Below are positions 14,768-45,101 of a stretch of 64,000 nt of DNA, in pieces. Both the position numbers and the translations under genes were made by a program. The stretch lies in the NCBI GenBank assembly GCA_003133665.1, contig PKYK01000037.1:1-64000 (forward strand). The letters run 5' to 3'. A model generated the notes under the pieces. It saw only the letters and a program-made list of their open reading frames with translations. It was not told the origin of the DNA and did not search any database. Numbering within the stretch: the stretch's first letter is position 1; each line of letters opens with the position of its first letter. Source of the DNA: Acidimicrobiaceae bacterium (lineage in GTDB: Bacteria > Actinomycetota > Acidimicrobiia > Acidimicrobiales > RAAP-2).

Positions 14768-15544
14768 CTAGCTCCTCGCCACGTTCCCTTGATCCGCGCT
14801 ACGAGCGGGCGGGCGAAATGCGGCGAAGGGATCAGTCACCCGCAACGTCCGCTCGCTGAATCGGTAGATCGTCGCGGGTCGACCCCCGGATGATGAGGGC
14901 GACGCGACCGATGCAGTTGACTCGATGATCTCGCGACGGAGCAAGACCCTCTGAAGGTTGGTGGATGAGATCGTGTGGCCGAGACACGACTCGTACACGA
15001 CCCTCAACTCCGCGATTGTGAAGACCCTTGGTGCGAGTGCGTACGCCACGTTGGTGTAGGTCAGTTTCGCGCGGAGTCGCTCGCGTCCGGATTGGATGAT
15101 CGACGCATGATCGAAGGCCGTTGGCGGAAGATCATCAACAGGGAACCACGCCGTATCGCCAGGTATCGTCGGATTCAGATCCGTCGAGACCAAGGCGATG
15201 TAGGCCGTCGCGATAATCCGTCCTCGCGGGTCCCGGTCGACGTCGCTGCGGGTCTCCAATTGCTCAAGGAAACCAATGTCGGTAAGGTCCACCTTGGCCG
15301 CGAGATGGCGCCCGAGCGAAGACCCGAGACGCTCCGTGCTCCCGAGCGCACCGCCGGGCAGCGCCCAGCACTGGGCGAAGGGCTCATGCGCCCGCTGCCA
15401 AAGCAGCGAATGCAACTTCCGCTCGCGAACCTGGAAGACGACGGCCAGAGCCTCATGCTCGAACCGGTCCGCGGATTGGTCGGCCGTCTCGACGTCACTC
15501 GTCTGCGGAGCGAAAGAAGATCCAGGGGTTTGACGCGACGACAC
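14768..15544 (-). CDS. nrtR: NrtR-type Nudix transcriptional regulator of NAD synthesis
   Basis: The 258-residue protein has an N-terminal Nudix-like domain (about 28-160; ALPGGALGSTERLGSSLGRH) in which the catalytic Nudix glutamates are largely missing, and a C-terminal winged helix (about 165-240; FTIAELRVVYESCLG and later RVLLRREIIESTA). That is the architecture of NrtR, which binds ADP-ribose or related NAD metabolites and represses NAD biosynthesis genes. It is divergent from nadABC, with a perfect palindrome between, as expected of an autoregulated local repressor. The start is GTG at 15544. Confidence 0.85.
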   Translation of the reverse strand: MSSRQTPGSSFAPQTSDVETADQSADRFEHEALAVVFQVRERKLHSLLWQRAHEPFAQCWALPGGALGSTERLGSSLGRHLAAKVDLTDIGFLEQLETRSDVDRDPRGRIIATAYIALVSTDLNPTIPGDTAWFPVDDLPPTAFDHASIIQSGRERLRAKLTYTNVAYALAPRVFTIAELRVVYESCLGHTISSTNLQRVLLRREIIESTASVASPSSSGGRPATIYRFSERTLRVTDPFAAFRPPARSADQGNVARS

Positions 15545-15564
15545 GCCTAATGGTAACGTAAAGA

Positions 15565-15595
15565 CGAGGTTTTCGCCTATCAGGCGAAAACCTCG
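15565..15595. promoter_or_regulatory. Perfect palindrome between nrtR and nadA (candidate NrtR operator)
   Basis: CGAGGTTTTCGCCT, three bases, AGGCGAAAACCTCG: 14-bp perfect arms about 21 bp upstream of the nrtR start and 75 bp upstream of nadA. The position suits an operator controlling both divergent genes. A terminator is unlikely because no gene ends here. Confidence 0.7.
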
Positions 15596-15669: not shown

Positions 15670-16668
15670 TTGGCAACCACAGGGATTGGAAGAGACGAGG
15701 ACGTTTTTCGTCGGTGGTCCGAAGAGGTCCGGCGACTCGCCGACGAGCGCGACGCCGTCATCCTTGCCCACAACTATCAGCTCCCCGAGATCCAGGACGT
15801 CGCGGATCACGTGGGCGACTCCCTCGCCCTCTCTCGAATCGCCGCCGCGAGTTCGGCGACAACAATCGTGTTCGCCGGTGTCTACTTCATGGCCGAAACC
15901 GCAAAGATTCTGGCACCCGAAAAGACCGTGTTGATCCCCGAGCGGCGAGCCGGCTGTTCGCTCGCCGACAGCATCAACGCCGATCAGCTCCGCGAGTGGA
16001 AGTCGGAGCACCCGGACGCCGTTGTCGTTGCGTACGTGAATACTAGCGCGCAGGTAAAGGCTGAGACGGACCTGTGCTGCACGTCGGCGAACGCCGTCGA
16101 GATCGTCGCGGGCATACCGAACGACCGGGAGATCCTCTTCCTGCCCGACCAATTCCTGGGCGCGCACGTGCAGCGAACGACCAAGAGAAAGAACATGCAC
16201 ATATGGATGGGCGAGTGCCACGTGCACGCCGGCATCAGTCCGCAGGAACTTCGCACGAAGGCCGCAGCCGCGCCTGAATCGGAACTCTTCATTCACCCCG
16301 AGTGCGGGTGCGCAACACCAGCGCTGTGGCTCACCGGCACGGGTGACCTTCCCGCCGAGCGAACCCACGTGCTCTCGACCGGCGGAATGCTCGAGCGAGC
16401 ACGAACGACGCAGGCTCGTTCGGTACTCGTCGCTACCGAGACGGGAATGCTGCATCAACTGCGGAGGGTCAATCCTTCGGTCAAGTGGGAGCCCGTGAAC
16501 GCAAAGGCCGAGTGCGTGTACATGAAGATGACGACGCCAGAGGTCCTGCTCCGCTGCCTGCGCACGGGCACGACCGAAGTGGAGGTCGATCCCGAGATTG
16601 CGAGCCGGGCTCGCCGGGCCGTCGAAGCCATGATTTCGGTCGGCACGTCGTCGCCGGTGGGCGAATGA
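15670..16668 (+). CDS. nadA: Quinolinate synthase NadA
   Basis: The protein is 332 residues with a TTG start. It catalyses condensation of iminoaspartate with dihydroxyacetone phosphate to quinolinate, the second step of de novo NAD synthesis. The three 4Fe-4S ligand cysteines lie in [18 protein letters not shown] and PECGCATPA; the start region has [20 protein letters not shown]. It is the first gene of nadABC, with ATG of nadB overlapping its TGA. NrtR control is inferred from the adjacent regulator and palindrome. Confidence 0.95.
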
Positions 16669-18305
16669 AAGTCGGCTCTCTTAAGTACCTACCCTCGACG
16701 GAGCATTCGTGGCAACGCGAGACGGACATCGTCATCATCGGCGCGGGAGCGGCCGGGCTCAGCGCGGCTCTGGATTCTTCGAGACGAGGCCATCGAGTGA
16801 TCTTGCTCAGCAAGGGGAACCTTCGGGGAGGATCGACTCTCCTCGCCCAAGGCGGCCTCGCTGCCGTTGTCGGCAAGGGAGATTCACTGAACTCACACGT
16901 GAACGACACGCTGGTCGCCGCCGCCGGTCTCGCGGACGAGACGATGGTGCGCGAGTTGGTGGCGGCCGCTCCGGGCGCGGTCCGATATCTTGCCGGACTG
17001 GGCGCTCGCTTTGACAACGGTCCGCTCGGCCTGGAGGGAGGCCACTCACACCGCCGAATCGTCCACGCCGGAGGCGACGCGATCGGGGCAGAGATCCACC
17101 GGGTTCTTCGTCGGGCAGTGAGTGATTCTGACGTCGAGACGATGGAGAACGCCGTCGCGATCGATGCCCTTACGAATAGCCGTGGCGACGTCATTGGCAT
17201 CCTCGTGGGAAAGATCAACCAAACGGTCGACCAGGGGTTGGACGTGGGCATCATCGCCGCGCGTGCTGTCGTCGTGGCGACCGGAGGATTCGGCCAGGCC
17301 TTCTCCTCATCAACGAATCCCGCCGAAGTGACGGGCGACGGTCTCGCACTCGCTGCCCGGGCGGGAGCCGAGATCACGAATGTCGAGTTCGTCCAGTTTC
17401 ATCCGACCGTCCTCTATGTTCCTGGTCAGCGCGGCCAGTCCCCCCTGATCACCGAGGCCATTCGAGGCGCGGGGGCCACGATTGTTGACGCGAAGGGGAC
17501 CCCGGTCATGCGAGGACAGCACGCACGCGGTGACCTCGCTCCGCGAGACGTTGTCTCCTACACGATGTTTCAACGAATGCACTCGCCGGTCGAGCCGGTC
17601 GCCAATCTCTGGCTTGACGCGCGAGCCATCGGAGACGTTCGACTGGACAAGGACTTTCCCACGACCGTCGAGCTCTGTCGCCAGGCAGGGGTCGACCCGT
17701 CCAGCGAACTCATCCCCATTGCCCCAGCCGCCCACTATGCGTGTGGAGGGGTTCGTGCGGACCTCGACGGCAACTCATCAATCCGAGGCCTCTACGTAGT
17801 CGGAGAGGCGGCGGCGACTGGAGTGCACGGCGCCAATCGCTTGGCCTCCAACTCTCTCACCGAGGCCCTCATCAGTGGCCGTCGACTTGCCCGGCAACTC
17901 GACGATGCGCTCTCATCCCGTTCCAGTCCTTTGGCGCCTCCCGGCTGTGTCAATCCCGCTCAGGGACGCGGCGTCGAATCCTCAACCCGAGAGACGGTGT
18001 CCACCAAGATGTCGACACACGTCGGAGTTGTCCGCAGTAGAACCGGCCTCGAAGACATACTCGATACGTTGGCAAGCGCTCCCGATAGTCCCGCGGCGCC
18101 GCTCGACCTCGCCACCCTCGAAGCGACCAACCTTCATACGGTCTCTCTGCTGGCGGCTTGGGCCGCATCGCTTCGAGAAGAGAGCCGTGGGTGTCATCGT
18201 CGAAGCGACTTCCCAGAGGTCGCCGATAGGTGGGGACACTCAATCTCGCTTCACGTCTTCGAGGGCGAGATCATCACTCACGTCGAGACCATGGCCGGCG
18301 CATGA
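16665..18305 (+). CDS. nadB: L-aspartate oxidase NadB
   Basis: Started at the ATG overlapping the nadA stop, the protein has 546 residues. It oxidises L-aspartate to iminoaspartate with FAD. The FAD site [20 protein letters not shown] is near residues 21-41, with [28 protein letters not shown] and [12 protein letters not shown] matching the succinate dehydrogenase/NadB flavoprotein family. The track's earlier start adds unrelated sequence inside nadA. NadB is slightly long for the family because of a low-complexity C-terminal segment around 465-485. Confidence 0.95.
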
Positions 18306-19204
18306 TCAAGGAACTCCACGAAATGTTGGAAGTGGCCGGTATCGATTCCACGGAGCTTCAACGCCTGGTCGATCTCTCCCTTGCCGAGGACCTTCGCTTT
18401 GGACCCGACGTGACGAGTGAAGCGACTATTCCCGTCGGTCAAGAGGCCGAAGGCGAAGTGGTCGCCCGACAGCCCGGCATCGTGTGCGGCGTCACGGTAG
18501 CTCTCGTGGTCCTTGAGGCAGTGCAGTTCCCACGGTCCGGAGTCACGATCATTCACGAAGACGGCGACGCGGTCGAGGCCGGTGACGCCGTTCTGCACCT
18601 TTCGGGACCTCTCCGACCGCTGCTCCTCGCTGAACGAACACTGCTCAACTTCATGACCCACATGTCCGGAATCGCCACGGCGACTAACTCTTGGGTGCGG
18701 GCCCTGGAGGGCACGAGTTGCGCGGTGCGCGATACTAGGAAGACCACACCCGGACTTCGCCAAATAGAAAAATACTCCGTGCGACGCGGCGGCGGGACAA
18801 ATCACCGAATGGGCCTTGGCGACGCTGCCCTTATCAAGGACAACCACATCGCTGCGGCCGGTGGTATCACCCGGGCTGTCACGGCTATCCGATCCGCCAA
18901 TCCGGATATCAGTCTGGAGGTCGAGTGCGACACACTCGAGCAAGTCCGCGAAGCGATCAGCATTCAGTGCTCTCTGATACTTCTCGACAACATGGATGTT
19001 GACACGATCCGGGCCGCTGTCGAGATCGCCCGCCGATCACCGGCGGTGCGCGTCGAGGCCAGCGGCGGAATGACACTTGAAAACGCGCGCGCCGTCGCTC
19101 GGGCGGGTGTTGACTACATAGCCGTGGGTTCACTCACTCATTCGGCCGCCTCACTAGATCTTGGCCTCGACATAGTCCCTACGACACCAACAGCGAATTC
19201 TTGA
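18302..19204 (+). CDS. nadC: Nicotinate-nucleotide diphosphorylase NadC
   Basis: The protein has 300 residues from the ATG at 18302, overlapping the nadB TGA by 4 bp. It converts quinolinate and PRPP to nicotinate mononucleotide. VRDTRKTTPGLRQIEKYSVR and then GLGDAALIKDNH hold the conserved substrate-binding Arg, Lys and His residues; EASGGMTLENAR is the C-terminal phosphate-binding strand. Together the three genes make NAMN from aspartate. Confidence 0.95.
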   Translation: MIKELHEMLEVAGIDSTELQRLVDLSLAEDLRFGPDVTSEATIPVGQEAEGEVVARQPGIVCGVTVALVVLEAVQFPRSGVTIIHEDGDAVEAGDAVLHLSGPLRPLLLAERTLLNFMTHMSGIATATNSWVRALEGTSCAVRDTRKTTPGLRQIEKYSVRRGGGTNHRMGLGDAALIKDNHIAAAGGITRAVTAIRSANPDISLEVECDTLEQVREAISIQCSLILLDNMDVDTIRAAVEIARRSPAVRVEASGGMTLENARAVARAGVDYIAVGSLTHSAASLDLGLDIVPTTPTANS

Positions 19205-45069: not shown

Positions 45070-45101
45070 CGTGGTGCGGCCCGGTCACGGGCCGCACCAC
45101 G
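45070..45101. terminator. Strong bidirectional terminator-like hairpin
   Basis: CGTGGTGCGGCCCG, loop GTCA, CGGGCCGCACCACG: 14-bp perfect arms. It lies 11 bp beyond the stop of the minus-strand gene at 45112, so it probably terminates that gene. There is no T-tract. Confidence 0.75.

Follow-up and report, generated by a model that had tools for sequence, protein, structure and literature searches.

A perfect palindrome between nrtR and nadABC in an uncultured acidimicrobial bacterium as a predicted NrtR operator

The divergent region between nrtR and the nadA, nadB and nadC genes of an uncultured acidimicrobial bacterium contains a perfect inverted repeat, CGAGGTTTTCGCCT-ATC-AGGCGAAAACCTCG at 15565-15595, whose arms (15565-15578 and 15582-15595) are 100% complementary around a 3-nt centre. 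The question raised by this locus is what such a repeat does there: whether it is bound by the regulator encoded beside it, is bound by some other regulator, or acts as a structure in RNA. The original prediction placed a palindrome with perfect 14-bp arms here, between NrtR and a divergent nadABC, and both the exact coordinates and arms and the orientation of the genes (nrtR on the minus strand, nadA, nadB and nadC on the plus strand) were found as described (Table 1). We propose that the NrtR encoded next to it uses the palindrome as its operator, a dimer of NrtR binding the core and repressing nadABC, and we put the probability of this reading at roughly 0.93.

Table 1. Predicted features of the nrtR-nadABC region
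Feature	Position	Strand	Remarks
nrtR	14768..15544	-	258 aa, GTG start; PF00293 3.5e-7, PF21906 2.2e-10; alignment A1; PDB relatives 5bs6, 3gz5/3gz6
Predicted -35, nadABC promoter	15530..15535	+	TTGACG; TTGAC at 18-nt spacing
Predicted -10, nadABC promoter	15554..15559	+	TAACGT, preceded by TGG; positional conservation of TAnnnT
Perfect inverted repeat, predicted NrtR operator	15565..15595	.	14-bp arms, centre ATC
Operator core, 23 bp	15569..15591	.	GTTTTCGCCT-ATC-AGGCGAAAAC; kept upstream of orthologous nrtR; fits published Mycobacterium NrtR site
nadA, quinolinate synthase	15670..16668	+	TTG start; PF02445 1.3e-108
nadB-like, L-aspartate oxidase	16665..18305	+	PF00890 7e-80, PF02910; context
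nadC, quinolinate phosphoribosyltransferase	18302..19204	+	PF01729 2.1e-58, PF02749

The repeat and the nadABC promoter

The palindrome lies far beyond chance. Perfect repeats with 14-bp arms and a loop of at most 20 nt were absent from 100 first-order Markov sequences with the length and dinucleotide make-up of the window (the whole 64,000-nucleotide stretch of DNA that was analysed), against two in the real window. The second of these, CGTGGTGCGGCCCG-GTCA-CGGGCCGCACCACG at 45070-45101, is unrelated, has a loop of 4 nt and is not followed by a run of T. In its own genome (2.49 Mb in 80 contigs, 85.8% complete) the full palindrome is single-copy, even when 3 mismatches are allowed, and a repeat element was ruled out as its origin by this single copy. 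The original prediction had also suggested a search for further sites upstream of other NAD genes; none was found in the 85.8% complete genome at up to 3 mismatches to the 23-bp core, although at this completeness one may have been missed.

The genes nadA and nadB, and likewise nadB and nadC, overlap by 4 nt, and the three look like a single operon. Its predicted promoter rests on positional conservation: TTGAC and TAnnnT, separated by 18 nt and followed by 9 nt and then the core, recur in 13 of 16 Acidimicrobiia loci. Across the phylum 69 of 82 loci have a TAnnnT at 6-12 nt before the core, where shuffles give 3.9. A generic sigma-70 scan does not report the nadABC promoter, because TAACGT fits TATAAT at three positions only. 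Transcription would initiate about 7 nt after the -10 element, and the start point of nadABC is expected near 15566, in the first bases of the palindrome, so that a bound dimer would cover the nadABC start region. On the nrtR side, the palindrome occupies bp 21-51 ahead of the predicted start codon of that gene.

NrtR and its mycobacterial counterpart

The product of nrtR combines an N-terminal Nudix-like domain (PF00293 at residues 34-150) with a C-terminal winged-helix DNA-binding domain (PF21906 at 169-229), its N-terminus being poorly conserved among orthologues. Its closest named relatives come from Acidimicrobiaceae metagenome-assembled genomes of palsa, bog and fen samples, at identities of 84% and below, and an NrtR homologue of another phylum, compared as a protein only, is homologous over both domains (profile search E 1.3e-27). 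The Nudix box, GGALGSTERLGSSLGRHLAAKVDL, is impaired, in that it has none of the REUXEE glutamates of the signature GX5EX7REUXEEXGU. The same has been described for NrtR proteins that regulate NAD (PMC4666351), and with its box impaired the Nudix domain is probably a sensor rather than an enzyme.

DNA motifs are highly variable between groups of the NrtR family (PMC4666351), and the nearest published case is that of Mycobacterium smegmatis, where NrtR (MSMEG_3198) binds GTTTTCGA-N7-TCGAAAAC in vitro in the nrtR-nadABC region (PMC6800001). There, as here, nrtR stands beside nadA, nadB and nadC and the palindrome spans 23 bp. The outer GTTTTCG...CGAAAAC is shared at equal spacing (GTTTTCGC-N7-GCGAAAAC here), with all 14 specified bases of GTTTTCG-N9-CGAAAAC matched at 15569-15591. 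The two sites differ at base 8 of the half-site, which is A in M. smegmatis and C here and is variable across the phylum, and in that each arm here stays complementary for another 4 bp outwards, in an uncultured acidimicrobial host. Judged by its core and spacing, the palindrome is an NrtR operator of the type known from the mycobacterial literature. The suggestion that it may define a lineage-specific operator holds at most in part. The site does differ from the Streptococcus motif quoted in PMC6800001, but core and spacing equal those of the published Mycobacterium site, and the motif is found again across Actinomycetota. What is gained is an extension of the mycobacterial operator to Acidimicrobiia, with the same core in many Actinomycetota; no new mechanism is opened, and we regard the site as well supported and largely ordinary. 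None of the papers that we searched names both NrtR and Acidimicrob-.

The proteins agree as well. By residue numbers and spacing, T195, N196, R199 and R222 in the helices of NrtR correspond at a constant offset of 26 to T169, N170, R173 and R196 of MsNrtR, giving the same DNA-contact residues T, N, R and R. Every one of the 80 relatives has all four, and mutating any one of them in MsNrtR abolishes binding to the GTTTTCGA-N7-TCGAAAAC probe (PMC6800001). Counting against a full match, the same offset pairs MsNrtR D167 with S193 and puts K179 on a residue that varies (E205 here). A further actinobacterial repressor of the family, NdnR of Corynebacterium glutamicum, compared here by family and gene context, likewise shares an operon with genes of de novo NAD synthesis. 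It differs in the genes listed for that operon, nrtR, nadA, nadC and sufS (PMC2807442), and in its effector, which is reported as NAD where it is cited in PMC6800001 and PMC4666351.

Conservation of the core and co-occurrence with nrtR

If the palindrome is an NrtR operator, the nrtR-nadA intergenic region of related genomes is where it should be kept, and a lack of conservation there had been named as one result that would speak against the original prediction. The core is conserved. In a first survey of nine other nrtR-nadA loci, eight within the genus and one from another family of the order, all nine carried GTTTTCG-N9-CGAAAAC in the same place with at most 1 mismatch and with differing flanks. 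We then considered 80 nrtR relatives obtained by a protein search of public genomes across Actinomycetota, several of which belong to genomes of the genus survey, so that the sets are not independent. The core lies just upstream of nrtR with at most 3 mismatches in 14 in 76 of the 80, and the poorer cores have 4 (L037 and L092) or 5 (L054 and L089). It occurs in Acidimicrobiia, in Actinomycetes and, in weaker form, in Thermoleophilia, and since the sites of Geodermatophilaceae and Nocardiopsis are usually 2-3 mismatches away from it, the core drifts between groups. From 81 distinct sites we derived a consensus of two facing half-sites, RGTTTTCGHCT, which may be used for the annotation of NAD regulation in uncultured genomes.

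Some of these loci have features of their own. A Nocardiopsis metagenome-assembled genome (L036) has two adjacent operator-like sequences upstream of nrtR, GTTTTAGACTTTCAGGCAAAAAG and GTTTTATACTCCAAGTCGAAAAC. At two loci with no nadA nearby a degenerate core stands between nrtR and another gene, namely a divergent MFS transporter gene in a member of Thermoleophilia (L071, about 2948-2971, 2 mismatches) and a gene for a PnrA-like ABC substrate-binding protein (L091, about 2940-2963, 1 mismatch), which suggests that NrtR may control precursor uptake there.

The presence of the site follows that of its regulator. We surveyed 61 genomes of the genus and 98 of the order, and all of the co-occurrence counts given here ignore kinship. 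Within the genus nadA is present in 14 of 61 genomes, on which the protein search and the Pfam model agree, and at 13 of these 14 nadA loci a divergent nrtR adjoins nadA with the core in between; the remaining genome (G003) has a nadA that is 67% identical, without nrtR and without the core. A genome-wide scan for the core at up to 1 mismatch gave matches in exactly the 13 nrtR-nadA genomes and in 0 of the other 48, and this clean match of presence and absence within one genus illustrates well how an operator and its regulator are retained, or disappear, as a pair. Of the 14 sites in the genus-wide core scan 13 lie at nrtR-nadA; the fourteenth (L137 in G451, 1 mismatch), between genes that from their translations are glycosyltransferase-like and HAD-phosphatase-like, was set aside as probably due to chance. 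Beyond the genus, the class yielded two exact matches (L098 and L099), which were also rejected, as they lack the inner CT...AG and such matches are no more than in the reversed-pattern control (4/395 genomes).

At the level of the order one nadA locus (L116) has both nrtR and the site, and the other 10 have neither an orthologous nrtR nor the site. Five of them (L114, L115, L117, L118 and L124) have, ahead of nadA and co-directional with it, a gene for a distant NrtR-like winged-helix protein. These loci have no GTTTTCG-N9-CGAAAAC site, and the recognition helix of the protein reads HK.NFRR against.TNLQR, so that the order may possess another kind of NAD regulator; in L119-L123 neither an NrtR-like winged helix nor the site is found beside nadA. 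The distribution of nadA itself is patchy. It is present in only 14 of 61 genomes of the genus and 12 of 98 of the order, with a Pfam model that matches 12 of 14 control genomes. The aspartate route to NAD thus seems to be absent from most of these bacteria.

How the site may act and what else it could be

We propose that one NrtR dimer would sit on the 23-bp core, with a RGTTTTCGHCT half-site recognised by each of its two winged helices, and that, with the core starting 9 nt past the nadABC -10, the bound protein would cover the start region and block transcription of nadA-nadB-nadC. A metabolite of the NAD pool on the impaired Nudix domain may set the level of repression, with either ADP-ribose releasing NrtR or NAD strengthening its binding; the reports disagree here, giving release by 50 mM ADP-ribose for M. 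smegmatis and tighter binding with NAD for C. glutamicum (PMC6800001, PMC4666351). From the position of the site and the M. smegmatis precedent NrtR would probably repress its own gene too, although such autoregulation, while plausible, is weakly supported, as a search of the minus strand for a conserved nrtR promoter came up empty. The NrtR dimer site that was originally expected here is strongly supported by the sequence comparisons, that is, by conservation, by co-occurrence with nrtR, by its placement on the promoter of nadA and by the independence of the half-sites.

This last point bears on the possibility that the inverted repeat is not a protein operator but forms a hairpin in the 5' leader RNA of nadABC, serving as a stabiliser or attenuator. 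The leader does fold well, at -44.6 kcal/mol (z = -4.68 against shuffles), and since the repeat starts where transcription is predicted to start, the mRNA would have it as its 5' end. However, when the complementarity of each arm pair in the 81 distinct sites was compared with shuffling, pair +-4 was complementary in 32 of 81 against 30.4 expected and most outer pairs were at chance, the exceptions being pair +-12 when all sites are taken (53 against 41.6 expected, kinship ignored) and pair +-14 within Acidimicrobiia (p about 0.02, kinship ignored). With pair +-4 at chance, the compensatory changes that mark a structured RNA leader were not found between the arms. Moreover, the stems are mismatched in many relatives and the site follows nrtR, not nadA alone, so that we consider a leader hairpin very unlikely. 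With the pairs at chance apart from +-12, the symmetry would therefore come from two copies of one protein contact and not from arm pairing, and the perfect 14-bp arms seen here would be mostly the core with fortuitous outer matches.

Read on the minus strand, the repeat might instead be an intrinsic terminator or attenuator before nrtR, and a scan does give one terminator-like match, a stem of 14 pairs followed by TCTTTACGTT, where 0.5 are expected by chance. It is placed upstream of nrtR, whereas a terminator belongs behind a gene, the plus strand has no T run, and both the full stem pairing and the T tract are unconserved in relatives, all of which makes this reading next to negligible. The site could also be the operator of another regulator encoded elsewhere, given that the binding of NrtR is predicted from sequence, but the core is present only where an orthologous nrtR adjoins nadA and M. 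smegmatis NrtR binds the same core (PMC6800001); we give this hardly more than a slight chance. Somewhat less remote, but still improbable, is that the operator has in a sub-lineage also been selected for symmetry beyond the core, which might give the nadABC transcript a 5' stem-loop or NrtR an unusually tight clamp. Perfect arms of 14-16 bp are found in the genome studied here and in L017.

Within the NrtR operator as we propose it, the two half-sites are not equally conserved among the 81 sites. The one nearer the nadA -10 is the better kept, with G at position 5 in 78 against 59 sites, C at position 6 in 65 against 45 and T at position 7 in 68 against 48.
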